From contig JAUIJE010000003.1 of the NCBI GenBank assembly GCA_030431455.1, positions 134,360 to 198,359 of the forward strand: a stretch of DNA of 64,000 bases, read 5' to 3'. The position numbers and the translations under genes are program-made. This DNA is from a bacterium. Its GTDB lineage: Bacteria > Myxococcota > UBA727 > JAUIJE01. Shown here one piece after another: positions 13,766-27,084 of the stretch (positions are counted from its first letter, which is position 1; every line of letters begins with the position of its first letter). The notes under the pieces are model-generated. The model searched no databases, was not told the origin of the DNA, and worked only from the letters and a program-made list of their open reading frames with translations.

Positions 13766-15181
13766 TCATTGGCAAGGCACGGCTCCCAACCGGGCGCCGG
13801 TGGCCTCGGCGACCACGTAGTGGTCGAAGGACGCGGCGAAGGCGGCGTCCCGGCTGGTGTTGCTCATCTTGGGTTGGTCCCACTTCCAGGCGCCAAAGCC
13901 GCCGCCGGCGAGCACGTAGCCGCGGTATCCACTTTTCGCCATCCACACGTACATCATGCGGTCGAAGAAACGTGCGGGCTGAGTTCCATTGCCATAGTTA
14001 TCGATCACCCCGAGGGTGGGCGAGACGTGGCTCTCGCTGCGGCGGCTCTTGCGCCGTTCCATCAACCAATGAAAACGACCTTTGTTCGCGAACGCCCCTC
14101 GGCTGCCCCGAAAGAAATCACCCAGCCAAGTGTCGCGGGTGGCGGCATTGCTGCCGGCCTGGCAATAGCGAGATTGGCGCACATAGAATTCCGGCGCGAT
14201 GACCGCGTGGGCGTCGAGCAAGGCATCGATGGCGCGGGTGGGCGCGGTGTTGAGGTTGGGATACGCCACGCCTTCGCCGTTGACCACGAACGCCCCCCAG
14301 CGTCCGGTCCACTCGGGGTAGACCGCGGCCAGCCTCCGGGCGGCGTCGTGCACCTTGTCTTTGCTCGACCCATTGAGCTCATCGATGATCACAAACGCGG
14401 GGGCGTCGGGTCCGGCCAAGGTGTTCGCGATGTAGTCGGCCAAGTCCTCCCCGCACTGAAAGTGCACGGGGCTGACCTTGTGGGCCCAATCTTGGCTCGA
14501 CACTGAATCGGGGCGGTTGGTCGACGCGATGATCGGTCCCTTGCCCGCCTGCACGAGGCCGACGATGGCGTCGTACGCGTAGGTGTCCGCCAAGTGCACG
14601 ACGTGAAACGACCGCCTTTCGGGCCGGGGGGCGGCGCTCGCGCAGCAACGGTCGCAATCGCTCGCCGCGCGCCACGCCCCCGGGCAGCTCCCGCTCCCCC
14701 CGAGACATTGGTCGCCGCCCGCCTGGCCGCAGGTCAGGCCGCAGGCCGAGAGCGCGGTACAGGCCGCGCGGTCTGCATTCACATTCCCGAACGGGCAGGT
14801 CCCCTCGTCGACGAAGCACGCGTCCGACGCTGCCCCGATGACGTGACAGCCAAACGCGCACGAGGCATGGGCCACCTCCACCGTGCCCTGGCAGGTGATG
14901 AGGGTGTCGCCGCGGCAGTGATCGCCGGTGCCCCGAATGTCGCAAAAGCGCGTGGTCCCGAACGACGCCTGCGCGTGGGGGGCGGCAAGATCGTTGGCCC
15001 CCGCGAGGTCGTGGGCGTCGTCGGCGATCAGCGCGTCGTGGCCGGCCAAAGACAGCTCGTCGCGGTGGGCGGACGCGGCGGGTACGGCCTCCGCGGGCGC
15101 CGCCTCGGACATATCGCCGCAGGCCGCGCACAATAGGGCATAGGCAGCGGCCGTGACCGCGTGTACGGTGCGTTGGTTCAT
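13766..15181 (-). CDS. Secreted lipoprotein with Cys-rich N-terminal region, unknown C-terminal domain
   Basis: A 471-aa lipoprotein (LLCAAC lipobox near residue 18). Residues about 60-165 contain many Cys in pairs (CDIRGTGDHCRGDTLITCQG and similar), likely disulphide-stapled. The C-terminal ~270 residues form one domain with the motifs HLADTYAYDAIVGL, FVIIDELNGSSKDKVHDAA and YVLAGGGFGAWKWDQPKM. The VIIDE and NGEGVAYPN segments give it a hydrolase-like or TIM-barrel-like appearance, but I do not recognise the family. ATG 15181 has a strong GGGGAGG at 5-base spacing. Transcribed alone after the symporter gene. Confidence 0.78.
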   Translation of the reverse strand: MNQRTVHAVTAAAYALLCAACGDMSEAAPAEAVPAASAHRDELSLAGHDALIADDAHDLAGANDLAAPHAQASFGTTRFCDIRGTGDHCRGDTLITCQGTVEVAHASCAFGCHVIGAASDACFVDEGTCPFGNVNADRAACTALSACGLTCGQAGGDQCLGGSGSCPGAWRAASDCDRCCASAAPRPERRSFHVVHLADTYAYDAIVGLVQAGKGPIIASTNRPDSVSSQDWAHKVSPVHFQCGEDLADYIANTLAGPDAPAFVIIDELNGSSKDKVHDAARRLAAVYPEWTGRWGAFVVNGEGVAYPNLNTAPTRAIDALLDAHAVIAPEFYVRQSRYCQAGSNAATRDTWLGDFFRGSRGAFANKGRFHWLMERRKSRRSESHVSPTLGVIDNYGNGTQPARFFDRMMYVWMAKSGYRGYVLAGGGFGAWKWDQPKMSNTSRDAAFAASFDHYVVAEATGARLGAVPCQ

Positions 15182-15317
15182 GTGTCCTCCCCAAGGAGAA
15201 CCATCGGCGAACCGGGCGAGGCCTGCGTCGGGCCGACGACCGAGACGTCCACCACGCAGGGAAAGCGCTGCGATCGCGAGGGCTTGGCCGGTTTTGACCA
15301 CGGGGTGCGTCACCGCC

Positions 15318-15339
15318 AGGTCGGTCGTTCGACCGACCT
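15318..15339. promoter_or_regulatory. Inverted repeat at the end of the symporter gene
   Basis: AGGTCGGTCG / CGACCGACCT form near-perfect 10-bp arms around TT, directly at the symporter stop codon. There is no T-tract on either side, so it may be a transcript-stabilising hairpin or an operator for the 13766-15181 gene rather than a Rho-independent terminator. Confidence 0.4.
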
Positions 15340-16766
15340 CAGGGCGTCATCGAGGCCGCGGGGGCGCGCACGGTCTTGGCCACGACAAATGCCAATGCAC
15401 CGGACACGAGGATGCCCCAGGCCGCGCTGACCGCGGGGTTTTCGACCCCCGCGACCTGCAGCACGCCGTGGGTGGCCACGCCCACCACCGCGAGCCAGGC
15501 CACCGGCACCGCGGATTTGACCTGGGGAAACAGCGTGCCCAGGAAGAACGGGGCGAACGACGCCGCCACCAGCCCGTAGACCCCCTGTTGGGCAAAAATC
15601 CCGAGCAACGCGGGCGGGTTCCAGGCGAGGGCGAGGCTGACCAGGCCGATGACCACCAACGCAATGCGGCTGTACCAAAGACCGTTGCCCTCTTTGTCCG
15701 CGGGCGAAAACGGCAGCACGAGATCGGCCACCACCACCGTGGACAGCGACACCAAGATCCCGTCGAGGGTGCTCATGCCCGCGGCCAGCAACGTCACGAG
15801 CACGAAGCTCACGATCACCGGGGAGAAGTTCTGGGTGATCCACACTACCACCACTTTGTCCTGGGCGGGGACCTCGAGCCCGGAGAACCGCGCGAAGAAC
15901 CCGATGAACAGCATGAGCGAGAACAGCACCGAACACACGATGGTGACAACGAGGAACGTGCGCAGGTCCTTCTCTTCTTTGAGGTACAGGACCTTGGTCA
16001 GGATGTGCGGCTGCATCATCAGGGCCGCGGTGACCACGAACGCCGAGATGAACACCGAAAACGGCCCGTTGTAGAGCGCGCTCTGCTCATTGAACACGCT
16101 CGCGAACGATGCAGACACATCCTGCATCTGGACCATGAAGCTGCCGTCGATGCGCCACACCCCCACCGCGAACAGCCCCACCGCGATCACCAGCATCATC
16201 ACGGACTGAAACGCGTTGGTGTAGGCGTGGGCATAGCTGCCCCCCATGAGCACGTAGGAGAACACGAACAACAACACCCCGACGAGGGCGAGGTGGTAGT
16301 CGAGGCCGAACAGGCCCCCGAGGATGATCGCGCTGCCCGCGAGGATGAGCACGATGAACGTGATGTACAAAAGAGACAGCAGAGCAAAGCCAACCCCGAG
16401 GCGCTGGCTGCCGAAGCGTTTTTTGAGCCAGTCGGGCAACGTCACCGCCGCGACCTGGCTGCCGATGCGGTGAAAGCTCTTGCTCATCACCACGAGCGCC
16501 ACCGCCAAACCGCCCATCGCCGCCACCCCGTAGTGCAGGTAGGCGGAGAGGCCGTCGGCGTAGACAAAGCCGGGGTTGATCACGAAGGTGGCCGTCGACG
16601 CGATCGACGATGCCATGGTCAGTCCCACCAGCGTGGGGGACATGTCCCCCTTGCCGATGGCGAACGACTTCAGGTCCGAGGTCTTTTTCATGCCCACCAC
16701 CGACAGCGCGATGGTGATCAGACAATAGACCCCGAGGAGCGCCGCGCCGAAGACCCCCGCGCTCAC
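15339..16766 (-). CDS. Sodium/solute symporter (SSS) family transporter
   Basis: Inner-membrane symporter of 475 aa, about 13 hydrophobic helices, the normal SSS length. The family region around TM2-TM3 is seen in GKGDMSPTLVGLTMASSIAS and GFVYADGLSAYLHYG, and the sodium-site region near TM8 in LLAAGMSTLDGILVSLSTVV. GTG start 16766 overlaps the phaC stop as GTGA, so it is the last gene of the PHA operon. Closest functional analogues with such context would be monocarboxylate or short-chain fatty-acid carriers (ActP/MctP-like), which is an inference from location beside an acyl-CoA ligase and PHA synthase. Sequence alone does not fix the substrate. Confidence 0.9.
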   Translation of the reverse strand: MSAGVFGAALLGVYCLITIALSVVGMKKTSDLKSFAIGKGDMSPTLVGLTMASSIASTATFVINPGFVYADGLSAYLHYGVAAMGGLAVALVVMSKSFHRIGSQVAAVTLPDWLKKRFGSQRLGVGFALLSLLYITFIVLILAGSAIILGGLFGLDYHLALVGVLLFVFSYVLMGGSYAHAYTNAFQSVMMLVIAVGLFAVGVWRIDGSFMVQMQDVSASFASVFNEQSALYNGPFSVFISAFVVTAALMMQPHILTKVLYLKEEKDLRTFLVVTIVCSVLFSLMLFIGFFARFSGLEVPAQDKVVVVWITQNFSPVIVSFVLVTLLAAGMSTLDGILVSLSTVVVADLVLPFSPADKEGNGLWYSRIALVVIGLVSLALAWNPPALLGIFAQQGVYGLVAASFAPFFLGTLFPQVKSAVPVAWLAVVGVATHGVLQVAGVENPAVSAAWGILVSGALAFVVAKTVRAPAASMTP

Positions 16767-17902
16767 GACGCCGCCTCCACCGCGGCGGCGGCTTTGTTCT
16801 CGCCCAGGGCGTCGCCGTGGCGGGTGAACCACTCGCCGAGGGTCTTGTGCAGCAAGCGCTTGCCTCGTCCCCCGACGACGACCCCGATGTGTCCGCCGGG
16901 GATGACCAGGGTCTCGTTGACCTTGGCGCTGAAGTGCTCTTGGCCCACCAGCGCCGACGGCGGGGGCACGATGTGGTCCTCGGAGGCGGCGATGGTGAGG
17001 ATCGGCTTTTCGACGTTCTCGAGCACGACCTGGCGGCCGTTGATCTCGAGCTTGCCGCGCACGAGGGCGTCTTCGCGGTACAGACCGGTGATGAGGTCGA
17101 CGTAGAAGCCCTTGGCGATGGACACGTTGTCGTTGATCCAGGTCTCGAGCGCGGCGAAGAAGGTGAGGAACTTCTCGTTGCCCAAGTTCTGGAACAGCCG
17201 GAAGATCTTCGACGGTTGGCTCAAGGGCTTGAGCAACACGAAGCTCGGCTGGGTGATGAAGGTCGGCACGTTGCCGAACACCTCGGCGAACGCCCGGGCG
17301 TCGAAGAACGGGGCCCGGGACCACGCCGAGAGGATGCCGGTGTCGTCGAAGCTGATGGGCGCGGTGAGGTTGACCAGGCTGCGAACCTTGTCGTCGGCGA
17401 CCGCCCCCAGAATCGTGGTCAAGGTGCCGCCGAGGCACTGGCCGAGCAGGTGGGCGTCGGCGGTGCCCGCGTCCGCGCAGGTCGCGGCCAAGAACGCCTC
17501 CAGCCGGGTGACGTAGGTCTGCAGGTCGTCCTTTTCGTGCGCAGGGGTGGGGTCGCCCCAGTCGATGCAATAGACGTCGAAGCCCTGGTCGAGGAGCGCC
17601 TGCACCACCGAGACCCCGTCCATGAGGTCGAGGATGTAGGGGCGGTTGATCACGCTGGGCACGAGCAACACCGGGGTCTTGTGCCGCGGCGCGGTGCGCG
17701 GCACGTAGTGCACCAGCGTCGACGGCCCGTCCTGGCACAGCACGGTGTAGGGGCTGGGCGCGATCTTGGTGCCCTCCCCGGTGAGGTAGGTGCGGGACAG
17801 CTTCATCGCGCCGTTCATGCGGGCGAGGGCGCTGGGCACAGCGTCGAGCACGCCGAGGCGCTTGAGGGCGGAGGTGGGGTCGGTCCAGGCGGAAAGGCGC
17901 AT
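16763..17902 (-). CDS. phaC: Poly(3-hydroxyalkanoate) synthase, class III-like size
   Basis: Polymerises 3-hydroxyacyl-CoA to PHA. The 379-aa length matches class III/IV PhaC rather than the ~590-aa class I/II. The lipase-like box is GQCLGG with nucleophile Cys156; Asp309 (ASEDHIVPP) and His338 (IPGGHIGVVVG) complete the triad. The N-terminal YDWGDPTPAHEKD-like segment (CIDWGDPTP) is also typical. Class III/IV enzymes need a second subunit (PhaE or PhaR-subunit), and none of normal size is adjacent; a 76-aa protein encoded immediately upstream is the only candidate in the operon. ATG 17902 lies 57 bases downstream of that gene; its stop overlaps the symporter start. Confidence 0.93.
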   Translation of the reverse strand: MRLSAWTDPTSALKRLGVLDAVPSALARMNGAMKLSRTYLTGEGTKIAPSPYTVLCQDGPSTLVHYVPRTAPRHKTPVLLVPSVINRPYILDLMDGVSVVQALLDQGFDVYCIDWGDPTPAHEKDDLQTYVTRLEAFLAATCADAGTADAHLLGQCLGGTLTTILGAVADDKVRSLVNLTAPISFDDTGILSAWSRAPFFDARAFAEVFGNVPTFITQPSFVLLKPLSQPSKIFRLFQNLGNEKFLTFFAALETWINDNVSIAKGFYVDLITGLYREDALVRGKLEINGRQVVLENVEKPILTIAASEDHIVPPPSALVGQEHFSAKVNETLVIPGGHIGVVVGGRGKRLLHKTLGEWFTRHGDALGENKAAAAVEAAS

Positions 17903-17959
17903 GAGGAACCTCGTGTCAGTCAGTTCGATGATTCTGTGAAAGTCGATATGAAGGCACGC

Positions 17960-18190
17960 TCAGTCTTCGAGCGCGTCGACCCCGCGCCACATGACTTGGG
18001 GTTTGCCGTGTTTGACCGCGAGGATGCTGCGGCACCACAAGGTCCAGCCCGCGCCCATGGGGGCGAGGAAGAGCTTGCTCTTCATGATTTTTTCCGCCCG
18101 CCGGTTGACCGGTCCTTCGAGGAAGGAGACCCAGCGGTCGAGGAACTCTTCGGGCAACGGCTTGATGGTATCGGGTTCGGGAGCGTTCAT
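17960..18190 (-). CDS. Small 76-aa protein upstream of PHA synthase
   Basis: Unrecognised. Sequence features: acidic N terminus (EPDTIKPLPEEFLDRWVSFL), basic middle (NRRAEKIMKSKLFLAP), and an aromatic, possibly membrane-touching segment (GWTLWCRSILAVKHG). No signal peptide. The ATG at 18190 overlaps the upstream lipoprotein stop (ATGA), so it is translated as part of the PHA operon. Position directly before phaC makes it a candidate accessory factor, granule-binding protein or miniature second synthase subunit; this is inference only. Confidence 0.75.
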   Translation of the reverse strand: MNAPEPDTIKPLPEEFLDRWVSFLEGPVNRRAEKIMKSKLFLAPMGAGWTLWCRSILAVKHGKPQVMWRGVDALED

Positions 18191-19017
18191 AGCGCCAACC
18201 TCCACAGTTGTTGAATGTCGGTGAACTCGTCGTCGAGGGGGGTGGAAAGCGGCACCGCGGGGCTGATCAGGCGCGCGACCTCGCCCAGGCACTCGTGCAC
18301 AAAAAGGTGCGAGACCTGGTGGGTGTCGCCGGCGAGCAAGGTGCGCTCGAACCGCACGGTGATGCGCAGGGTGTTCTCGAGGACCAGGTCGGGCAACTTG
18401 AGCGTGCCCCGGCCGGTGACCTCGATGTCGTAGGTGTCGTCGAACGCGCTGGGCAGGCCCAACAGGCGTGCGTCCTCGGCCCGGGCGGTGCTTGTGAAGT
18501 GGTCACCGAGGGCCAAGGGGAACTGGTACAGGGCGATGGGCTGGTCGTAGCTGGCCAGCGTCTGCCCGGATTCGCCCTGTTGCTGGGCGGAGGCGAAGCC
18601 GTGCAAATAGACGCCGTCGTCGTCGGTGACCACCGCCCCGTAGGTGGTCGGCCCCGGGTCCAGGGCCGCGGCGTAGTCGGCCCCTTCGAACACGGGCGCG
18701 AACCAGAACCCGTCCAGCGTCGACAACTCAAACGTGGCCTGGGGCGAGGCCTCGGCGTCGGGCCGGGTGAAATCCCAGGTGTCGACGCCGAACTCTTTTT
18801 GCGGCTGGGTCGAGACCTCGCTGGGCAGGTCGTTGATGCGGTACCGCGCGCGAACGCCCACCACGTAGGGCAGCTCGGCGCGTTCGATCACGCCGTCGTT
18901 GTTGCCGGTGCAGGGCGGGACCGCGACCGCGGGCTCGTAGGGGGTGCCCTCATCGATGGGCGCGGGTTCGCAACCGAGCAAGGCGAGGCAAGGCAAAAGC
19001 AGAAGCGTGCGGTTCAT
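18187..19017 (-). CDS. Lipoprotein of the PHA operon (paralogue of 21799-22794)
   Basis: A 276-aa lipoprotein (LALLGC, Cys about 16). The body aligns by eye with the other operon lipoprotein: C-x3-DG-x-I/L-E-x2-ELP at the start, then WDF, a FWFA motif, YGA/YGV, a YD-x-P repeat, PLALGD/PLAAGQ, and an ending with C-x-GEVA-like residues and LWRL. This suggests a beta-rich surface domain duplicated within the operon. This copy has no Gly-Asp linker. It overlaps the outer-membrane protein gene upstream (ATGA) and the 76-aa gene downstream (ATGA). Function unknown. Confidence 0.82.
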   Translation of the reverse strand: MNRTLLLLPCLALLGCEPAPIDEGTPYEPAVAVPPCTGNNDGVIERAELPYVVGVRARYRINDLPSEVSTQPQKEFGVDTWDFTRPDAEASPQATFELSTLDGFWFAPVFEGADYAAALDPGPTTYGAVVTDDDGVYLHGFASAQQQGESGQTLASYDQPIALYQFPLALGDHFTSTARAEDARLLGLPSAFDDTYDIEVTGRGTLKLPDLVLENTLRITVRFERTLLAGDTHQVSHLFVHECLGEVARLISPAVPLSTPLDDEFTDIQQLWRLAL

Positions 19018-20600
19018 GCTTGGTCTCCCGTGACCCCGAGCCGGAGCAACAACATTTGCGCGATGCCGGGGGCAGACCCGCCCCGGGCCCCGAGACCGCC
19101 CAGGGGCAAGAGCACCCCGTAGTCGGCCCGGAAGGTCACCGCCCCGTACTGAAAGTACGCGGCCAAGTCGAGCTCGGCCCCGAGGGGGGCCCGGCCCCCG
19201 GGGGTGCTGGCCGCGGACAGCCCGTGGCTGTAAATGGCATTGGCTTCGAGCCCCAGCCCGGGCAACGGTTGGCCCCCGATTTTGGCCCGCCCAAACGCGG
19301 CTTCGGACACGCCCCCGAGGAGGGTGCGCCACATGATCAGGTCCACCCGGTAGGCGGGGTGGAATCGAAACGCGTCCATCCGGGTGTCGTGCGTGCCGTC
19401 GAGCTGGCTGCCGTACACGTCGCCGGGCCGGCCCGCGGCGAACGCGGAGGGGCCGTTGACGGGAAAGCCGAACCCGGGGTCGGCGCTGGCCAGGCCCACC
19501 TCGCCGAACACCGACAGACGGTCGCGCAGGGTGCGGTACTCGGCGTTGGCCACGGCCCCGAAGGGGTTGCCGGTGACCGGCTCGCGCAACACCACCCCCG
19601 CGTAGGGCGAGGGGTTGGCGATGACGAAGTGGGACCCCACCGCCTCGGCTTCGAGCTTGATGTCGCCCCACCAAAGCCGCGCCCACACGTCGAGCACCGC
19701 CGCGCCATAGCGCCGGTCCACCACCGCGAAGTCGTCGACGCCCAAGGTCGAATCGAGGGTGCGGTAAAAGCCGGGGGTGTCCTCCCACTGTCCCTGCACC
19801 GAGACCACCGCGCCGTAGTCGAAGCGCGGCCGCCACGCGTCACGGTAGAGCTTGACCTCCCAGGGGGCGTGGTAGCGCACCACCGCCACGGACGCGGCGT
19901 GCACCCCGTCGGTGACCCGGCCCGGGTCGGGGGCGATGCCGGCGTCGGCCACCCGCGGGCCCGATGCCGCCCAGTCGAGCCCCACCGCGACGTAGTGGCC
20001 AAACAGCGGGGCCATGAACCCGATGCGGTCTGCGCGGTCCCCGCCGTCGTCGTCGAGGTCGTTGCCGTTGTTGGCGGCGATGCCGAGACCAAAGTGACTG
20101 GGCATGCGGCCAGCGAACAACACCCCGAACGGGAGCCGCGCTTCCGCGTACGCGTCCCGCACCCGAAACGCCCCCAACGCGAAGGTGAGCGGCTCCTGGA
20201 ACGCGGTGCCGGCCACGATCGCGGTCTTGTCCCGGTACGGCGCGCCTTTGGGGCTCGCGCCCAGGGCCACGTTGTCGAGCACGTCGACCCCGAGCACCAC
20301 CCGCACGTTGTCGCCCCAGAAGAAGCTCGGGCGCAGCCGAAGCCGCATGTCTTGCCCCGACGTGATGTCGAGCGGGGTGGTGCCCGCGGGCCACAATGCC
20401 GTTTGGCTCGAGGGAGACACGCCCCGGTCGAGGTCGAGATTGGAGAACGCGCCGATGCGCAGGCGCAAGTGGCCCTCGAGCCGCATCCAGTCTTCGGGCT
20501 GTTTTTCGCGCCAAGCGTCCGCGGGGTCGCCAAAGCCCACCCGGGCCGCGGCGGGCAACGACCCGACGAACAGCACCAAGCACAGGAGGCGCTTGATCAT
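19014..20600 (-). CDS. Outer-membrane protein of the PHA operon
   Basis: A 528-aa exported beta-barrel candidate. It has a signal peptide (LLCLVLFVGSLPAAA) and many amphipathic strands (LRLRIGAFSNLDLD, MRLRLRPSFFWGDNVRVVLG, LDVWARLWWGDIKLE), and ends in MLLLRLGV. It resembles a family of large outer-membrane proteins described from myxobacteria (TIGR04551-type), but that assignment needs a profile search. It contains an acidic NGNDLDDDGGDRADR loop. Overlaps by 4 bases with the hydrolase lipoprotein gene upstream and the lipoprotein gene downstream. In this context it could be the outer-membrane gate of an acyl-compound uptake route. Confidence 0.8.
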   Translation of the reverse strand: MIKRLLCLVLFVGSLPAAARVGFGDPADAWREKQPEDWMRLEGHLRLRIGAFSNLDLDRGVSPSSQTALWPAGTTPLDITSGQDMRLRLRPSFFWGDNVRVVLGVDVLDNVALGASPKGAPYRDKTAIVAGTAFQEPLTFALGAFRVRDAYAEARLPFGVLFAGRMPSHFGLGIAANNGNDLDDDGGDRADRIGFMAPLFGHYVAVGLDWAASGPRVADAGIAPDPGRVTDGVHAASVAVVRYHAPWEVKLYRDAWRPRFDYGAVVSVQGQWEDTPGFYRTLDSTLGVDDFAVVDRRYGAAVLDVWARLWWGDIKLEAEAVGSHFVIANPSPYAGVVLREPVTGNPFGAVANAEYRTLRDRLSVFGEVGLASADPGFGFPVNGPSAFAAGRPGDVYGSQLDGTHDTRMDAFRFHPAYRVDLIMWRTLLGGVSEAAFGRAKIGGQPLPGLGLEANAIYSHGLSAASTPGGRAPLGAELDLAAYFQYGAVTFRADYGVLLPLGGLGARGGSAPGIAQMLLLRLGVTGDQA

Positions 20601-21802
20601 CGCGCCCCCTTCCGACGCTGCGGCGCCATCGGACGCTCGCCGTCCCCCGCCGGCAATGTCTCTGCCTCGTCTTCGCTGTCGGCGTCCACGTCGTCCATAT
20701 CGTCCGCGTCATCTGCCGGTTCGGCCGGGGGCACGTCGGTCTCGTCGGTGGGCACATCCCCGGCGGGCTTTTCCGCAGGAGACGCGGGCTCGCTCGACGG
20801 TGCCGGGTCGACATCGGCCTCGGGCCCGGCGGGGGGCACCGCCGGCGGCAGCATCGTGTCCGGGGCCGGCGCCCCGTGGCCGGATTTTGCTTCGGCCTCT
20901 TTGACCATCGGGGACAGCGCCCGCCACAACGACTTGGGCCGCTCCCAGCTCGGCATGTGGCCGCACGCGGGGAGCACCACCAGGGGTGCGTCGATCACCG
21001 CGGCCAGGCGTTTGCCGTTTTCGAGGGGGACCACACGGTCCTTTTCACCCCACACCAACACGATGGGCACGTCGAGGTCGCGGTACTGGGCCTGGGCCTC
21101 GGCGTAGTCCATGCCCCGGACGGTGGCCAGCGCCGCATAGACCGCGCCGTCTTTGTCCATCATCGCTTCCATCTCGTCGAGCGCTTCGAGGGACACGAAC
21201 TGGTCGCGATCGTCGAAGGCGAGCAGGTATTTTTCCCCTGGCACCTCTTTGAAAAACGCCCCGAACAAAAGCTCGCCCACCCCCGGCACCTTGGCCCAGC
21301 GAAAGTCGGTGGGGATGTCCTCCTCGAGGGCAAACGCGCTCACCAGCCCGACCCCCCGCACGCGGTCTTTGTCCTCCAGAGCCGCGCGCATCACCACGCC
21401 GCCGCCGTAGCTGTGCCCCACGAGCACGGCCTCGTCGATGTCGAGGGTGTCCATCAGCTTGATCAGGTCTTTGGCGTGTTGCTCCGGGCCGTAGGCGCCC
21501 TCGGCCCGGGAGCTATGCCCAAATCCGCGCTGGTCGTAGCTCACCACCCGGCGCCGCTGGGCCAGGCGCGGCTGCAGCTCCCGCCAGGCCTCGAGCCGGG
21601 AGCCGTACCCGTGCACGAGGATGATCGGCAGGTGCCCCATGTCGCGCGGGCCTTGGTCGCGCACCCGCAACCAAGCGCCGTTGATGTCGAGGTACTGCTC
21701 GGCCACGTCGTCGAGGTTGGGCGGCGTGTCCCAGTTGGGGCCCGCGGTCACGCAACCGGTGAAAGCCACGCCGAGCAGCAGGAGCAGGACAGACCGGGTC
21801 AT
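20597..21802 (-). CDS. Alpha/beta-hydrolase lipoprotein with long acidic C-terminal tail
   Basis: A 401-aa lipoprotein (GVAFTGC, Cys about 16) with an alpha/beta-hydrolase domain at residues about 35-300: LVHGYGSRLEAW oxyanion region, GHSYGGG nucleophile Ser, WGEKDRVVP with the acid, and CGHMPSWERP with the His. A low-complexity Asp/Glu/Pro/Ala-rich tail of about 90 residues follows, then a basic end (PQRRKGAR). An envelope-anchored esterase or lipase is the likely role. Overlaps by 4 bases with the upstream Gly-Asp lipoprotein gene and the downstream outer-membrane protein gene. It could release acyl chains outside the inner membrane for import. Confidence 0.87.
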   Translation of the reverse strand: MTRSVLLLLLGVAFTGCVTAGPNWDTPPNLDDVAEQYLDINGAWLRVRDQGPRDMGHLPIILVHGYGSRLEAWRELQPRLAQRRRVVSYDQRGFGHSSRAEGAYGPEQHAKDLIKLMDTLDIDEAVLVGHSYGGGVVMRAALEDKDRVRGVGLVSAFALEEDIPTDFRWAKVPGVGELLFGAFFKEVPGEKYLLAFDDRDQFVSLEALDEMEAMMDKDGAVYAALATVRGMDYAEAQAQYRDLDVPIVLVWGEKDRVVPLENGKRLAAVIDAPLVVLPACGHMPSWERPKSLWRALSPMVKEAEAKSGHGAPAPDTMLPPAVPPAGPEADVDPAPSSEPASPAEKPAGDVPTDETDVPPAEPADDADDMDDVDADSEDEAETLPAGDGERPMAPQRRKGAR

Positions 21803-22794
21803 TCGCCGAGGCCCAGGCGGCGCAGCTCGCTCGCGGTGGTGAACAGGTCGTCGTCCTCGTCTTCCTGCGAGGCCACGAACGCGACCTGCCCGTAGCAGGG
21901 GGTCATGAACGAGTGCCGCACGTACCGGTAGGTGAGCGAAAACGGGAACACGATGATCGGCACCGTGACCTCGAGGACCACCTGGACCTGCCACGCCTTG
22001 AACGTGCCCGCGGCGGTGATCACGTCCCCCTGCCGCAACACATCGATCTCGTAGTGGTCGTCGCTGGAGAAGAACAGCCCCTCGAAGGTCCCGCTGACCT
22101 CGGTGTCCACCGTCCACGATTGGCCCGCGGCCAGCGGCAACTTGAGGGTGGCCACCGGCGGGTCGTAGTGGAGCACGGTCTCGTCGACCGCCGCGCTCGC
22201 GACCCCGAGCAGCAACAGTTCGGTGTCGGTGCGCGCGAGCACGCCGTAGTTGGTCGCGTCGCCGTTGAGGGCCAACACGTAGGGCGTGGCCCCCGCGGGC
22301 ACGATGTATTCGTCCGCGAACCAGAAGTCGTCCAGCGGCTCGCCCATCAACTCGATGTTGCGGTCGGTGGCGTAGGGACCGGAAAAGTCCCACACCCACC
22401 CGTCGCCGGTGTCGCTTCCCGCGACGTCGACGGTGAGCCCGTCGTCCCCCCCCGGGGCCTCGACAAACCGCAGGGCGGTGCCGAGGGTCAAGGGCAGCTC
22501 GTCGTTCTCGAGTTGGCCGTCGCCGTCGTCGCAGATGCTCACCCCCGCGTCGTCCCCGTCGCCATCGCCGTCCCCGTCGCCATCGCCATCGCCATCCCCA
22601 TCGCCGTCCCCGTCACCGTCGCCATCACCGTCGCCGTCACCGCCGTCGGTGACCCCCGCGTCGAGGTCGTCGGCGCCCACGCACGCCCCCTCCACGCACG
22701 TCTCGGTGGCCGCGCACTCGTCGGAGGCGGTGCACTCGACCCCGCCCGGACAGGCACACAACAAAAACGGCAACAGCGACAACCAGGCTTTCAC
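21799..22794 (-). CDS. Lipoprotein with Gly-Asp linker (paralogue of 18187-19017)
   Basis: A 331-aa lipoprotein, GTG start 22794 (GTGA overlap with the acyl-CoA ligase stop). Lipobox LLCAC is followed by a small Cys-rich segment (CTASDECAATETCVEGACVG), a 15-unit Gly-Asp tract, and a ~240-residue domain sharing motifs with the second operon lipoprotein: CDDGDGQLENDELP, WDFS, FWFADEYIVP, YGVLAR, PLAAGQSW and a CYGQVAFVAS end. The Gly-Asp tract sits exactly between Cys-rich and paralogous domains. Role unknown; probably surface-exposed. Confidence 0.84.
   Translation of the reverse strand: MKAWLSLLPFLLCACPGGVECTASDECAATETCVEGACVGADDLDAGVTDGGDGDGDGDGDGDGDGDGDGDGDGDGDGDGDDAGVSICDDGDGQLENDELPLTLGTALRFVEAPGGDDGLTVDVAGSDTGDGWVWDFSGPYATDRNIELMGEPLDDFWFADEYIVPAGATPYVLALNGDATNYGVLARTDTELLLLGVASAAVDETVLHYDPPVATLKLPLAAGQSWTVDTEVSGTFEGLFFSSDDHYEIDVLRQGDVITAAGTFKAWQVQVVLEVTVPIIVFPFSLTYRYVRHSFMTPCYGQVAFVASQEDEDDDLFTTASELRRLGLGE
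22552..22641 (-). repeat. Gly-Asp hexanucleotide tract, 15 units
   Basis: Fifteen GGN-GAY units encode the linker of the upstream PHA-operon lipoprotein; absent from its paralogue at 18187-19017. Confidence 0.9.
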
Positions 22795-24326
22795 GCGCGC
22801 TCCCCCAGGCGATGTTTCTGCACTTTTCCCGAGGGGTTGCGCGGCAGCTCGTCGACGACCACAAACTCCTTGGGCACTTTGTAGGTGGCCAGGCGCTGCT
22901 TCAACCAGTCGCGCAATGTCTCTTGGGCCACCGCGTCTTTGTCGGTGACTTCGAGATAGGCCCGGCCCACCTCGCCCCACTTCTCGTCGGGAACCCCCAC
23001 CACCGCCGCGGCGCGAACCTGGGGGTGGTCGGACAAGGCCTTCTCGACCTCCGCGGGGTACACGTTCTCGCCGCCGGAGATGAACATGTCCTTCTTGCGG
23101 TCCACGATGGTGTAAAAGCCGTCCGCGTCGCGCTCGACCACGTCCCCGGTGCGGAAAAAGCCGTCGTCGCTCAACGCGTCTTTGGTCGCGTCGGGCCGAC
23201 GCCAGTAGCCGGCGCAGACACACGGCCCCCCGAGCAGCAGCTCGCCCCGGCCCGGGCCGGTGACCACGTCGCCGCGCTCGTCGACGACGCGGGCCTGGAT
23301 GTGCAGGTTGGGCCGGCCCGCGGCCCCGCGTTTCTTGTCGATGTCCTCGACCCGGAGGTTCAGGCAGTTGGGGCCGACCTCGGTGAGACCGTAACCCTGC
23401 TTGAACTTGATGCCCCGCTGGGCATAGGTCTCGATCAAAGACTTCGGGCACGGCGCGCCGCCGCACAGGGCCACCCGCACGTGACCGAGGTCGGTGTCGG
23501 CGAACCGCGGGGCCACCGACATCATCTCGAAGGTGGTGGGCACGCCGAACAACAGCGTACAGCGCTCTTCGGCGGTCAAGCCCAGGCAGCGATCGGCGTC
23601 GAAGCCGTCATCGAGCACCACCGAGCCCCCGCAGGACAGCAGCGGGGTGGTGAGCACGTGCAAGGCCCCGGTGTGGAACATCGGGGTATAGGTGACGGTG
23701 CGGTCGTCGGCGGTCAGCCCCAACGCCACAATGGTATTGAGTGCATTGAACGCCACCTGGCGGTGGGGCAACAGCGCCCCCTTGGGGCGCCCGGTGGTGC
23801 CCGAGGTGTACAGCACCACCCACACGTCGTTGAGTGAGAGCGGGGCCTGGGCGACCTCCGGCGCCCCGCTCACCTCGGCGAGGCGGTCGGCGAGCACCAC
23901 CGCGGCCTGCGGGGTGTCCTCGTCGGTGGGGCGGGGGGTGTCGAGGGCCACGGCTTGGGCGTGGGCCTGGGCGAGGATCTTGCCCGCGACGAAAGCGTGC
24001 TCGGCGTCGAAGAACAACGCCGCGGGCTCGAGGTCGTCGAGCACGAAGCTCAGCTCGGGCGCGGCCATGCGCCAGTTGAGCGGGGCGTAGAGCGCGCCGA
24101 GCCGGGCGGTGGCGAACAGCAGGTCGAGATGTTCGAGCCGGTTCTTGGCGAGGATCGCGACCCGGTCCCCCTGCTTGACCCCGAGGGAGACGAGCACGCG
24201 CGCCATCGCGTCGACCCGGGCCGCGAGCTTGCGGTACGACACCCGGGTGCCGGTCTTGACCTCGAGAAGGGCCTCTTTTTCCTCGAACAGCTCCGCGAGG
24301 TTCTTGGTCCAATCACCGGCCCACAT
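22791..24326 (-). CDS. Acyl-CoA synthetase (AMP-binding family)
   Basis: Cytoplasmic ligase of 511 aa that adenylates a carboxylic acid and transfers it to CoA. The full set of family motifs is present: LYTSGTTGRPKGALLPH (A3), GYGLTEVGPN (A5), TGDVVERDADGFYTIVDRKKDMF (A7-A8, here split as TGD and DRKKD), GGENVYPAEVE, and PRNPSGKVQKH with the catalytic Lys. ATG 24326 was chosen because AAGGAG lies 7 bases upstream; GTG 24332 would be too close. It overlaps the upstream hydrolase gene by 14 bases. Medium/long-chain or branched acyl substrate is likely but unproven; in this operon it would feed acyl-CoA towards PHA. Confidence 0.93.
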   Translation of the reverse strand: MWAGDWTKNLAELFEEKEALLEVKTGTRVSYRKLAARVDAMARVLVSLGVKQGDRVAILAKNRLEHLDLLFATARLGALYAPLNWRMAAPELSFVLDDLEPAALFFDAEHAFVAGKILAQAHAQAVALDTPRPTDEDTPQAAVVLADRLAEVSGAPEVAQAPLSLNDVWVVLYTSGTTGRPKGALLPHRQVAFNALNTIVALGLTADDRTVTYTPMFHTGALHVLTTPLLSCGGSVVLDDGFDADRCLGLTAEERCTLLFGVPTTFEMMSVAPRFADTDLGHVRVALCGGAPCPKSLIETYAQRGIKFKQGYGLTEVGPNCLNLRVEDIDKKRGAAGRPNLHIQARVVDERGDVVTGPGRGELLLGGPCVCAGYWRRPDATKDALSDDGFFRTGDVVERDADGFYTIVDRKKDMFISGGENVYPAEVEKALSDHPQVRAAAVVGVPDEKWGEVGRAYLEVTDKDAVAQETLRDWLKQRLATYKVPKEFVVVDELPRNPSGKVQKHRLGERA

Positions 24327-25257
24327 GCGCACGCTCCTTGGCAGGGTGGTCGGAAAGGCATTCCGCGTCGAACGCCATCAACAGCTCGTGGACCGCGTCG
24401 GGGGCGTCGACCATGGGCACGTGGCCGGCCCCCTCGACGACGTGGACCGGCGCACCGCAGGCCCAGGCCACCGTCTCCACCGGGCCGCGGGGCACGATCA
24501 CGTCCCGTGCGCCGAACACGTACGACACCGGCGCGGGCAATGCCAACGCACGCTCGTGCACCAGATGGTCGAACACGTCGCCCACCACCTGCTCGGTGGT
24601 GGCCGCGTACCGCGGCCCCAACTCCGAGCGGGGCAGGGCCAACCGCCGCACCAATGCGTCTGCTTTGGCCGCGCGGTCGAGATAGATCGCATCGTTGACG
24701 GCGCGGATCTGGGCGTCGGTGCGCGCGAGCCACATCGCGCTCGAAAACGCTTGGCGGGCCGCGGCCGCGACCTCGGGGTCTTTGCTCTGGTAGCCGCCCG
24801 GGCCGATCAGCATCAGGCCGCGGCAGGGCACACCCGAGAGCGCGGCGAGCTGCACCACGTGACCGCCGAGGCTGGAGCCGACCAGGAGCGGGGCTTCGTC
24901 GAGGCTCTTGACCACCTCGGCCACCGCCGCCACCAACTCGGACAGACCCGCGCCGGGCAGCGGCAAATCCGCGCACCCAAAGCCGGGCAGGTCGAGCGCG
25001 ATGTACGTCTTGTCCGCGCGCCGGGAGAACAGCGGGGCCCAGTCGGACAGGTCGTGGCCGAGGCCGTGCACAAACACCACCGCCGGGCCTTGGCCGGCCT
25101 GGAGCACGGGGAAGGACAAGCCGTCCACCGCCATGGTGCGCTCGATGCCTTGGGGCCAGCGGGTGCGCAAGAAGCGCCGCAGGGCCGCGCCCTCGATGCG
25201 GGCGGGGAGGTCCGCGGGGCGGCGCCAGGGGCTGGGGGAAGGCTGGTGATCGGTCAT
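24313..25257 (-). CDS. Cytoplasmic alpha/beta hydrolase, first gene of the PHA operon
   Basis: A 314-aa alpha/beta-hydrolase without signal peptide. The oxyanion region is VVFVHGLGHDLSDW, the nucleophile elbow GSSLGG, the acid in FGARDVIVP, and the His in EGAGHVPMVD. The cap region holds FSSAMWLARTDAQIRAV. Candidate roles include intracellular PHA depolymerase/oligomer hydrolase, acyl-CoA thioesterase or a general esterase. As the first gene it sits directly under a PhaR-like palindrome that overlaps its ATG (25257-25255), which ties its expression to PHA status. Confidence 0.88.
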   Translation of the reverse strand: MTDHQPSPSPWRRPADLPARIEGAALRRFLRTRWPQGIERTMAVDGLSFPVLQAGQGPAVVFVHGLGHDLSDWAPLFSRRADKTYIALDLPGFGCADLPLPGAGLSELVAAVAEVVKSLDEAPLLVGSSLGGHVVQLAALSGVPCRGLMLIGPGGYQSKDPEVAAAARQAFSSAMWLARTDAQIRAVNDAIYLDRAAKADALVRRLALPRSELGPRYAATTEQVVGDVFDHLVHERALALPAPVSYVFGARDVIVPRGPVETVAWACGAPVHVVEGAGHVPMVDAPDAVHELLMAFDAECLSDHPAKERAHVGR

Positions 25258-25271
25258 TGTGCGCTGCAGCA
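25257..25271. promoter_or_regulatory. PhaR-type operator candidate at the PHA operon start
   Basis: TTGTGC-GCT-GCAGCA overlaps the ATG of the minus-strand operon. Its first 12 bases are identical to the phasin-promoter site at 25948. The right arm deviates from GCACAA. PhaR proteins are known to bind TGC-rich dyads; binding here is inferred. Confidence 0.5.
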
Positions 25272-25322
25272 GGGTTGTGTTGCGGCTGTTTCCCAGCTGT
25301 GAAGGCGGGTGTCAACTGGTTA

Positions 25323-25338
25323 TTGTGCAAACGCACAA
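25323..25338. promoter_or_regulatory. PhaR-type operator candidate upstream of phaR
   Basis: Perfect dyad TTGTGC-AAAC-GCACAA, located just upstream of a TTGACG -35 element for phaR. Suggests autoregulation and control of the divergent operon. Confidence 0.65.
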
Positions 25339-25342
25339 CCGA

Positions 25343-25370
25343 TTGACGCATCCGCGCAAAGATCTTAGGA
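25343..25370 (+). promoter_or_regulatory. Candidate promoter for phaR
   Basis: TTGACG (25343-25348), 16-base spacer, then TTAGGA (25365-25370) as a weak -10. The dyad at 25323 lies immediately upstream. Confidence 0.45.
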
Positions 25371-25390
25371 GGGGTGGAATTGGAGAGCGC

Positions 25391-25945
25391 ATGGCCGACC
25401 CCGTGGTGATCAAAAAATATGGCAACCGCCGGCTCTACGACACGGAGCGCAGCGGGTACATCACGTTGGCCGATCTGGAAGAGATGGTGCGCGCCGGGCG
25501 CGACGTTCGTGTCGTCGACGCCAAGACCAACGAGGACCTGACCAAGTTGGTGCTGGTCCAGATCATCGCCGAGCGGGACGCCGCCCGTGAGGTCCTGCCC
25601 CTCGGTTTTCTCAAGGCCATCGTGCAACACGCGGACTCGCCCGAGCGGGGCAAGCTGCGCGACGCCCTCAGCAACGCCTGGGGCGGTTTTGTGCAAACGC
25701 AAACGGCGGCGGTGGCGCAGATGACCCAAGCCGCGCTCGCGGCCAGCCCTTGGGCGATGTTCTCCCAGGGGCCGTTCACCGCCCCGCGCCCGGCCCCGAC
25801 CACGGTCAGCCCCCAAGATGTCGTCGAGCAGAACGCGCGGCGTGATCAAGAGATCGCAGATCTCAAGGCCCAGCTGGGACAGACCAACGAGCTGATCCAC
25901 GCCCTGCTCAAGGCCCAACAGAACGGCCAAGAACCGGGCTCGTGA
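25391..25945 (+). CDS. phaR: Polyhydroxyalkanoate synthesis regulator PhaR
   Basis: A 184-aa DNA-binding regulator that senses PHA granules and represses phasin and PHA genes in other bacteria. The N-terminal PHB_acc_N domain is unmistakable: IKKYGNRRLYDTERSGYITL, then VVDAKTNEDLTKLVLVQII. A PHB_acc-like helical segment follows (LGFLKAIVQHADSPERGKLR), then a Pro/Gln-rich linker and a C-terminal coiled coil (RRDQEIADLKAQLGQTNELI). ATG 25391 follows GGAG at 5 bases; a longer frame upstream reads through the promoter and operator and is rejected. Convergent context: upstream divergent PHA operon, downstream phasin-like gene with the same operator type. Confidence 0.95.
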   Translation: MADPVVIKKYGNRRLYDTERSGYITLADLEEMVRAGRDVRVVDAKTNEDLTKLVLVQIIAERDAAREVLPLGFLKAIVQHADSPERGKLRDALSNAWGGFVQTQTAAVAQMTQAALAASPWAMFSQGPFTAPRPAPTTVSPQDVVEQNARRDQEIADLKAQLGQTNELIHALLKAQQNGQEPGS

Positions 25946-25947
25946 TT

Positions 25948-25962
25948 TTGTGCGCTGCACAA
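25948..25962. promoter_or_regulatory. PhaR-type operator candidate at the phasin promoter
   Basis: Perfect dyad TTGTGC-GCT-GCACAA, three bases after the phaR stop and just upstream of a TTGACG -35 box. A repressor bound here would block phasin transcription, as described for PhaR in other bacteria. Confidence 0.68.
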
Positions 25963-25967
25963 TTTTC

Positions 25968-25995
25968 TTGACGCACCGCAAAAAGAGCCTATCCT
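25968..25995 (+). promoter_or_regulatory. Candidate promoter for the phasin-like gene
   Basis: TTGACG (25968-25973), 16-base spacer, TATCCT (25990-25995). One of the best sigma-70-like promoters in the window; the TTGACGCA core is shared with the phaR promoter. Confidence 0.6.
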
Positions 25996-26039
25996 CCGGC
26001 CACACCCACACCACGGGTGCCCACCCCAAGGAGGATTTC

Positions 26040-26285
26040 ATGACCACCGAGAAGAAAAAGCCCGCGGCCGAGCCCACCACCTTCCACGTCGCCACCTGGA
26101 TGGACCAGCTGAAGGAACAAAACGAGCGCATGCTCGGCGAGACCGAAAAGGCGATGAAGCAGGTGATGGACCAGGGTCAGCGCATGTTCGACGAGACCCA
26201 AAAGACCATGGCCGCGCAGTTCAAGCTGCAACAGGACTTCATGGAGTCGATGCTCGACACCGCCAAGAGCTTCACCGCGCGCTGA
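26040..26285 (+). CDS. Small phasin-like PHA granule protein
   Basis: An 81-aa, strongly helical, amphipathic protein rich in Lys, Glu, Gln and Met. After a basic leader (TTEKKKPAAEP), heptad-like repeats (DQLKEQNERMLGETEKAMKQ; MFDETQKTMAAQFKLQQDFM) run to the end. Phasins coat PHA granules; most are 110-190 aa, so this is short and the family assignment rests on composition and location between phaR and a reductase gene. ATG 26040 has a strong AAGGAGG. Its own promoter carries a PhaR-type operator, and a strong terminator follows. Confidence 0.75.
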   Translation: MTTEKKKPAAEPTTFHVATWMDQLKEQNERMLGETEKAMKQVMDQGQRMFDETQKTMAAQFKLQQDFMESMLDTAKSFTAR

Positions 26286-26294
26286 CGTGCGCCT

Positions 26295-26340
26295 CCCCGC
26301 GCGGCTCGTCAAGGTGACGACGCGCGGGGCTTTTTTTTTT
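26295..26340 (+). terminator. Rho-independent terminator after the phasin-like gene
   Basis: Stem CCCCGCGCG...TCGTC / GACGA-CGCGCGGGG with an AAGGT loop, followed by a run of ten T. The next gene starts 16 bases later, so some read-through is likely. Confidence 0.88.
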
Positions 26341-26355
26341 GTGCAGGAGACCCCC

Positions 26356-27084
26356 ATGCGTGGATTGAACAACCGCTCCGTTCTTGTCACCGGCGCCGCC
26401 CGCGGCATCGGCCTGGCCACCGCCGAACGATTCGCCGAAGAGGGTGCGCAGGTGCTGCTCGTCGACCTCGCCGAGAGCCTGGAGCTCACCGGCGCGCTCG
26501 CCGAACGCGGGACCTACAAGTGCATCGACGTGACCTCCGCGGACGGCCGCGCCGCGATCGAAACGCTCATCGATGAGCGGGACATCGACGTCCTGGTCAA
26601 CAACGCGGGCATCACCCGCGACGCGGTGAGCTGGAAGCTCGACGCCGACAACTGGCAGAAGGTCATCGACGTCAACCTCACCGCGGTGTTCATGCTCAGC
26701 CAAGCGATGGCCAAGTCGCTGCGGGCCCGCAAGAAAGAGGGCGTGATCCTCAACGCCGCGTCGGTGGTCGCCCACTACGGCAACTTCGGCCAATCCAACT
26801 ACGTGGCCACCAAGGCGGGCGTGATCGGGCTGACCAAGACCATGAGCAAAGAGCTCGGCCGGTTCGGCATTCGGGTCAACGCGGTGGCCCCCGGCTTCAT
26901 CGCCACCGACATGGTCGCGAAGATGCCCGACGAGGTGCTCGACGGCATGCGCGGCAAGGCCCCCCTGAGCCGCCTGGGCGAGCCCTCGGAGATCGCCGCT
27001 GCCTATGCATTTTTGGCGTCCGATGACGCGAAGTTCATCAGCGGCGCGACCCTCAACGTCGACGGTGGCTTGGTCCTCGGATAG
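26356..27084 (+). CDS. FabG/PhaB-like 3-oxoacyl reductase (SDR)
   Basis: A 242-aa classical short-chain dehydrogenase. The nucleotide-binding motif TGAARGIG is at residues 12-19, NNAG follows the fourth strand, and the catalytic residues are the Ser in NAASVVAHYG and YVATK (Tyr-x3-Lys). The C terminus (DAKFISGATLNVDGGLVL) is typical of FabG/PhaB. Such enzymes reduce 3-oxoacyl-ACP or acetoacetyl-CoA with NADPH. Location after phaR and phasin makes an acetoacetyl-CoA reductase role (PHA precursor supply) attractive, but FabG cannot be excluded. GCAGGAGA lies upstream of ATG 26356. Confidence 0.9.
   Translation: MRGLNNRSVLVTGAARGIGLATAERFAEEGAQVLLVDLAESLELTGALAERGTYKCIDVTSADGRAAIETLIDERDIDVLVNNAGITRDAVSWKLDADNWQKVIDVNLTAVFMLSQAMAKSLRARKKEGVILNAASVVAHYGNFGQSNYVATKAGVIGLTKTMSKELGRFGIRVNAVAPGFIATDMVAKMPDEVLDGMRGKAPLSRLGEPSEIAAAYAFLASDDAKFISGATLNVDGGLVLG

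Follow-up and report, generated by a model that had tools for sequence, protein, structure and literature searches.

A polyhydroxyalkanoate synthase locus of Myxococcota paired with a conserved block of envelope genes

Synthesis of polyhydroxyalkanoate (PHA) is conventionally viewed as purely cytoplasmic. Why, then, should the gene for a PHA synthase share an operon with genes for lipoproteins and an outer-membrane protein? The question is raised by a locus in a 64,000-nucleotide stretch of a Myxococcota genome (contig JAUIJE010000003.1, positions 134,360 to 198,359), referred to here as the window. Nine minus-strand open reading frames, all intact and with a third-position GC content (GC3) of 0.83-0.96, occupy 15339-25257. 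In order of transcription they encode an alpha/beta hydrolase (hyd), an acyl-coenzyme A (CoA) ligase, a lipoprotein (lipo1), a lipoprotein hydrolase (lipohyd), an outer-membrane barrel, a second lipoprotein (lipo2), a small protein (p76), the PHA synthase PhaC and a symporter of the SSS family. At six of the eight junctions the genes overlap by 4 bases, ATGA or GTGA (ligase/lipo1, lipo1/lipohyd, lipohyd/barrel, barrel/lipo2, lipo2/p76 and PhaC/symporter). Between hyd and the ligase gene the overlap is longer, 14 or 20 nt according to which start codon is used, and the sole gap of the operon, 57 nt, separates p76 from PhaC. An earlier note, made from the sequence without database searches, had described nine minus-strand genes coupled nearly throughout by 4-base overlaps; the reading frames, junctions and family assignments bear that description out. 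Divergent from the operon, on the plus strand at 25391-27084, lie phaR, a phasin-sized gene and a short-chain dehydrogenase/reductase (SDR) of the FabG type; the range given in the earlier note takes in these genes, which it did not describe.

Conservation of the pairing across Myxococcota

The pairing of the PHA locus with a block of envelope genes is conserved. PhaC alone served as bait, leaving the neighbours unselected, and one scan of 84,980 species using PhaC patterns only returned 15 loci, every one labelled Myxococcota, Myxococcales or Deltaproteobacteria. In 12 of the 15, PhaC has the block lipo1-lipohyd-barrel-lipo2 upstream of it, with the gene order unchanged and identities mostly of 25-55%. 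Two of the remaining loci (L006, L012) end before the block region, and the third (L008) has p76 and PhaC with the block on another contig. Because the order is kept in distant genomes, the arrangement is not a product of chance.

A wider survey covered 179 Myxococcota genomes and 70 fetched stretches. Related genomes are over-represented in it, and its counts are best read at family level, where the block is found beside a PHA synthase in about ten families (f1, f5, f6, f9, f16, f17, f18, f19, f22 and f31; the synthase of the f31 locus is a divergent PhaC-like gene). Most of these families show a full plan, with SDR, PhaC(a) and phaR divergent from lipo1, lipohyd, barrel, lipo2, X, ligB and PhaC(b). 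The lipoprotein family occurs in 33 of the 179 genomes, nearly always in exactly two copies sited in the block, and the block is absent from 146. PhaC is present in 29 of the 33 genomes with the lipoprotein family, compared with 88 of 179 overall; at genus level the co-occurrence is 19/21 versus 18/62 (Fisher p = 8e-7). Read from coordinates, a lipoprotein gene lies within about 10 kb of a PhaC in 26 of the 33. The earlier note had assigned the envelope genes to phaC, and had named a lack of conservation beside phaC as the finding that would tell against this. The ten or so families, the gene order, the co-occurrence and the PhaR boxes on the envelope operon strongly support the assignment; among the neighbours expected to be conserved, the lipoproteins and the outer-membrane protein stood, and the symporter did not.

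PhaC is, by its sequence, a class III-like PHA synthase. It matches PF07167 (PhaC_N) at 35.1 bits, above the cut-off of 23.7, and is the one PhaC_N match in the whole genome. Its triad, C156, D309 and H338, with a G-x-C-x-G box, is invariant across 17 aligned rows; its score against the class III subfamily model TIGR01836, 234.5 bits, is below the cut-off of 365.3. In other loci, a protein of about 100 residues between lipo2 and ligB, designated X, matches the C-terminal quarter of PhaE, scoring 28-32 bits against PF09712, whose cut-off of 25.7 was passed by two of the three sequences tested. The p76 protein has no PF09712 match, aligns to the first half of the X profile (E 1.4e-4, probability 52%), and is probably a shortened relative of the PhaE-like X. 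A PhaE family search of the window's own genome carries no information, its control having been silent as well. The block-linked synthases belong to separate clades of the PhaC tree, whose strongly supported branches require a minimum of three label changes; the pairing of block and synthase has therefore persisted even where the synthase was replaced or duplicated.

Three further observations concern the synthases. At L085:8973-10592 (minus strand), the synthase slot of the block is filled by a PhaC-like protein of very divergent sequence, which has a GYCGQG box and scores only 20.7 bits to TIGR01836. Several loci, L009, L015, L018 and L020 among them, have two PHA synthases from separate clades flanking phaR on either side, and the members of such a pair may differ in monomer preference. 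The PhaC proteins of the large genus g61 were considered as equivalents and rejected, as those are lone genes from another clade.

PhaR and its candidate boxes

In other bacteria, PhaR is a PHA sensor that is released from its boxes as PHA accumulates. Here it apparently controls both the operon and the phasin gene, judging from the candidate boxes listed in Table 1. The box between the divergent operons is flanked by divergent TTGAC(A/G) hexamers resembling -35 elements, at 25310-25315 (minus) and 25343-25348 (plus); the TTGACA of the minus-strand operon was read by eye, the sigma-70 scan being uninformative there. A box stands immediately ahead of TTGAC(A/G) at the phasin promoter, at both divergent promoters and at hyd of L007.

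Perfect palindromes of the form TTGTGC-N(2-5)-GCACAA number 2 in the window, where 0.02 are expected. The count for the whole genome (7.7 Mb), 3, is not extreme in itself because a reversed-pattern control gives 2 sites, and what carries weight is where the three sites lie, without exception. The third, at L098:4897-4911 (G000:C16:405896-405910), is followed after 10 nt by the start codon of a gene for a KAS III-type synthase (PRK06840, 410 bits, cut-off 315), possibly a PHA-linked acetoacetyl-forming enzyme. Over the loci compared, the window counted once among them, a box with at most two mismatches occurs within 400 bp upstream of phaR in 20 of 29, against 4.4% by chance. The strongest evidence tying the envelope genes to PHA metabolism comes from G013 and G015, where these genes are detached from phaC, on other contigs, and still retain boxes, three imperfect ones upstream of hyd and one perfect one upstream of lipohyd. 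Characterized sites are similar: the experimentally tested PhaR site of Sinorhizobium meliloti phaP1 is TTATTGTGCACTGCACAAATT (PMC12542648), and the core footprinted with Bradyrhizobium diazoefficiens PhaR at phaP4 is TGCGCTGCACAA (PMC6201568).

Table 1. Genes and candidate PhaR boxes of the locus, in window coordinates.
Feature	Position	Strand	Basis or remark
sodium:solute symporter (SSF), last of nine operon genes	15339..16766	-	PF00474 130 bits
PhaC, class III-like PHA synthase (by sequence)	16763..17902	-	PF07167, TIGR01836 matches; triad C156-D309-H338
p76, 76 aa, in the slot that X, a short PhaE-like subunit, takes at other loci	17960..18190	-	p76-vs-X profile match
lipo2, all-beta lipoprotein, paralogous to lipo1	18187..19017	-	alignment; AlphaFold2 pLDDT 85.7
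outer-membrane beta-barrel, TIGR04551 paralogue	19014..20600	-	TIGR04551 265.4 bits; structure model
lipohyd, lipoprotein alpha/beta hydrolase	20597..21802	-	Abhydrolase_1 115 bits; lipobox C17; triad S131-D255-H282
lipo1, lipoprotein with Cys-rich start, (GD)n linker, DG-x-I-x3-E loop and all-beta domain	21799..22794	-	alignment, motif count, profile survey
acyl-CoA ligase (ligA type), 511 aa	22791..24326	-	AMP-binding 279 bits + C-terminal domain
hyd, cytoplasmic alpha/beta hydrolase, 314 aa, operon gene 1	24313..25257	-	Abhydrolase_6 76 bits
second box, TTGTGCGCTGCAGCA, imperfect, 2 mismatches	25257..25271		touches hyd start codon
PhaR-box-like palindrome, TTGTGCAAACGCACAA, perfect, 4-base spacer	25323..25338		between divergent operons
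phaR, PHA-responsive regulator, divergent	25391..25945	+	PF07879 (PHB_acc_N DNA-binding domain) 96 bits, cut-off 25; TIGR01848 89.4 bits, under the equivalog cut-off of 109.45
PhaR box, TTGTGCGCTGCACAA, perfect, contains TGCGCTGCACAA	25948..25962		before phasin-like gene, 5 nt ahead of TTGACG
phasin-like protein, 81 aa	26040..26285	+	size, position, PhaR box; no family match
SDR reductase, FabG/PhaB type	26356..27084	+	TIGR01830 254 bits (cut-off 298); TIGR01829 210 bits

A further minus-strand gene at 13766-15313, with a lipoprotein-like start and no assigned family, lies 25 to about 160 nt 3' of the symporter and may be a tenth gene of the operon.

Envelope proteins, carriers and the direction of transport

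What the block does for the PHA locus is a matter of graded likelihood. We give an even chance to the reading that the nine genes form an operon, controlled by PhaR, whose products take up ester-linked carboxylic or hydroxy acids across the envelope and store them as polymer. Lipid-anchored lipohyd would cleave ester-linked acids at the outer membrane, and the 18-strand barrel would admit the released water-soluble acids or short oligomers, with lipo1 and lipo2 as probably calcium-binding partners of barrel and hydrolase at the surface or in the periplasm. Passage of the acids over the inner membrane would fall to a secondary carrier, which belongs to the SSS family here and to the MFS or SNF family in some relatives; the CoA ligase would activate them, and PhaC with its PhaE-like small subunit would polymerise the products. 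Together these parts would make an unbroken path from ester cleavage at the outer membrane to polymer. PhaR, controlling the operon and the phasin gene, would turn acquisition on together with storage. The sequences show which genes are present, how they are ordered and conserved, and the motifs and catalytic residues that they keep; we infer the import direction, the substrate, the surface exposure and the lipoprotein roles; the CoA ligase and the Na+-coupled carriers point inward.

The lipobox cysteine and triad of lipohyd (Table 1) are invariant in 13 of 13 aligned homologue rows. Generic alpha/beta hydrolases are its closest solved relatives, with the poly(3-hydroxybutyrate) (PHB) depolymerases 8ynv and 8ynw among them and not at the top, and it falls below the cut-off of the intracellular PHA depolymerase (nPHAscl) model NF050089, at 78 bits versus 300. 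A relaxed EF-hand-like loop pattern, mostly N-x-D-G-x-I-x3-E, appears in all 24 of the long lipoprotein rows and suggests that the lipo1/lipo2 family is probably calcium-binding. In its AlphaFold2 model, lipo2 consists almost wholly of beta structure, and Foldseek searches with this model gave insignificant YmcC-like matches only (E 0.06). The last 100 or so residues of lipohyd (window 20597-20900), a tail rich in proline and acidic residues, have no counterpart in aligned homologues, and the (GD)n linker of lipo1 (about 22550-22660), which joins the Cys-rich start to the beta domain, is represented in homologues by other low-complexity linkers.

The barrel matches TIGR04551 over its whole length, under the curated cut-off of 300 bits. 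Nearly every Myxococcota genome surveyed has another TIGR04551 copy, to which the block barrel is a paralogue; scored against the block profile, block barrels reach 460-800 bits, as against about 340 for the other copy. We found no mention of TIGR04551 in the open-access papers searched. The structure model has 18 long strands at low confidence (pLDDT, the predicted local distance difference test, 58), and its best Foldseek matches are AlgE, which ranks first, MOMP, Omp32 and OccK11; the FadL fold is not among the top 50 of 763 matches to this low-confidence model. Since the barrel is porin-like, soluble acids or oligomers would be a likelier cargo than long-chain fatty acids, and fatty acids or triglycerides, which the earlier note named among the compounds to try, are not favoured as substrate, with the caution due to the model.

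The inner-membrane carrier is variable. An SSS carrier is found in three loci, those of the window, L025 (65% identity, same place) and L058 (41%), and the symporter was for this reason rejected as a core part. MFS carriers take its place in L007, L013, L014, L028, L045, L046 and L087, and an SNF carrier in L071. The window's symporter missed all equivalog cut-offs of the substrate subfamilies PutP, PanF, ActP and MctP; the two MFS carriers tested against NCBIfam showed weak, sub-cut-off likeness to carriers of organic anions (galactonate, aromatic acid, oxalate/formate). SSS and SNF are families of importers. A CoA ligase acts on free acids and so suits import; that of the window has a 61% identical orthologue in L007, and the CoA ligases are long-chain-like, nearest to FadD13 and PRK06187-type enzymes. 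The hyd gene is retained in the same-order relatives L007 and L088. In G025 (L087:6625-12249) the MFS carrier comes after the block, and a neighbouring gene, judged by eye, resembles 3-hydroxyisobutyrate dehydrogenase. In G020 (L054:9251-14278) the gene directly upstream of phaR and PhaC encodes an RND pump (ACR_tran, 675 bits).

Several points weigh against uptake and storage. The nearest fold of the modelled barrel, AlgE, is an exporter, and MFS carriers are able to export. No carrier was found beside the block in several Archangium/Myxococcus-like loci, the largest group, and in G025 the block is away from PhaC. Generic hydrolases precede PHB depolymerases among the closest solved relatives of lipohyd, and the 25323 box has a spacer of 4 bases rather than the 3 of the characterized PhaR sites compared.

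Transport could run outward instead, the envelope genes sending hydroxyacids, oligo-PHA or a surface polymer out of the cell when PHA is abundant, as overflow or as a coat. Besides AlgE, the weak YmcC-like match of the lipoprotein and the encoding of lipoprotein and barrel genes with a synthetic enzyme, PhaC, lean this way, and S. meliloti PhaR controls exopolysaccharide genes, including one for an outer-membrane export protein (PMC12542648). The porins Omp32 and OccK11 match the barrel likewise, however, and no glycosyltransferase was seen, nor any polymerase besides PhaC. An exporter would have no need of a CoA ligase, and two of the carrier families are known for import; we consider export unlikely.

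In a narrower form of uptake and storage, the cell would scavenge PHA or 3-hydroxyacid oligomers from outside, lysed prey being one conceivable source, with lipohyd as the oligomer hydrolase. The presence of 8ynv and 8ynw among its solved relatives and the control by PhaR would suit this, and the predator Bdellovibrio hydrolyses prey PHA by extracellular-type depolymerases (Bd3709, Bd2637), releasing oligomers (PMC4834554). The similarity of lipohyd to depolymerases is at superfamily level only, however, and its NF050089 score is 78 of the 300 bits called for; this form, too, is improbable. A bolder version, in which lipohyd, the two calcium-loop lipoproteins and the 18-strand barrel would form a PhaR-controlled envelope complex, a dedicated PHA-sensing import machine with which Myxococcota strip hydroxyacyl esters, perhaps from the PHA of lysed prey, for direct re-polymerisation, we regard as doubtful. 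If true, it would be, to our knowledge, the first storage-polymer operon spanning both membranes.

Less probable again is that lipohyd and the lipoproteins serve envelope upkeep, recycling the cell's own acyl chains for re-activation by the CoA ligase and storage, with PHA co-regulation incidental. This needs no external food and accommodates a lipoprotein hydrolase encoded with a long-chain-like ligase, but it sits poorly with a carrier slot filled by exchangeable families, with a porin-like barrel and with the 146 Myxococcota genomes that do without the block. That two unrelated operons are merely adjacent through shared ancestry is very improbable: many loci do come from related genomes and the block stands apart from phaC in G013, G015 and G025, but the association spans several distinct PhaC clades and about ten families, the detached copies in G013 and G015 retain PhaR boxes, and six translational overlaps couple the genes of the window.

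Comparison with known systems

A link between granule formation and outer-membrane and carrier genes is a testable claim on how environmental, often predatory bacteria fill their stores. It also points to a role for a lipoprotein family that has no name, and for the barrel paralogue in Myxococcota, and it extends the PhaR box to that phylum. Within the open-access papers searched (subscription journals being outside the scope), no described Myxococcota operon combining PHA and envelope genes was found.

Class III/IV PHA loci, in which phaC goes with a phaE or phaR subunit gene, a phasin gene and phaB, resemble this one in a PhaC with a C-D-H triad, a probable short PhaE-like subunit, a divergent phaR, a phasin-like gene and a FabG/PhaB reductase. 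They differ from it in that here an envelope block and an inner-membrane carrier lie within the operon, PhaE is probably reduced to about 100 (X) or 76 residues (p76), and PhaC scores under the class III cut-off. With the PhaR (AniA) regulons of Sinorhizobium and Bradyrhizobium the locus shares a TGC-N3-GCA core with TTG/CAA arms beside the -35 element of the phasin promoter, whereas here, the phasin aside, PhaR would mainly act on an operon that encodes outer-membrane and carrier proteins, and one box has a 4-base spacer. TIGR04551 proteins are alike over the whole length, the block barrel being a sub-cut-off paralogue of the near-ubiquitous Myxococcota copy. The Bdellovibrio depolymerases, which hydrolyse prey PHA outside the cytoplasm, offer a biological analogue; the lipoprotein hydrolase of this locus is encoded with a barrel, carrier, ligase and synthase, and the likeness proposed is one of function. 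Sus-type glycan uptake loci place a surface lipoprotein enzyme, binding lipoproteins, an outer-membrane channel and an inner-membrane carrier in one operon. The present locus differs in having no TonB-dependent receptor, in ending in polymer synthesis and in bearing no sequence relation to them. Compared with all of these, the PHA locus and the PhaR regulon are of known kinds, and the built-in envelope module is clearly new.

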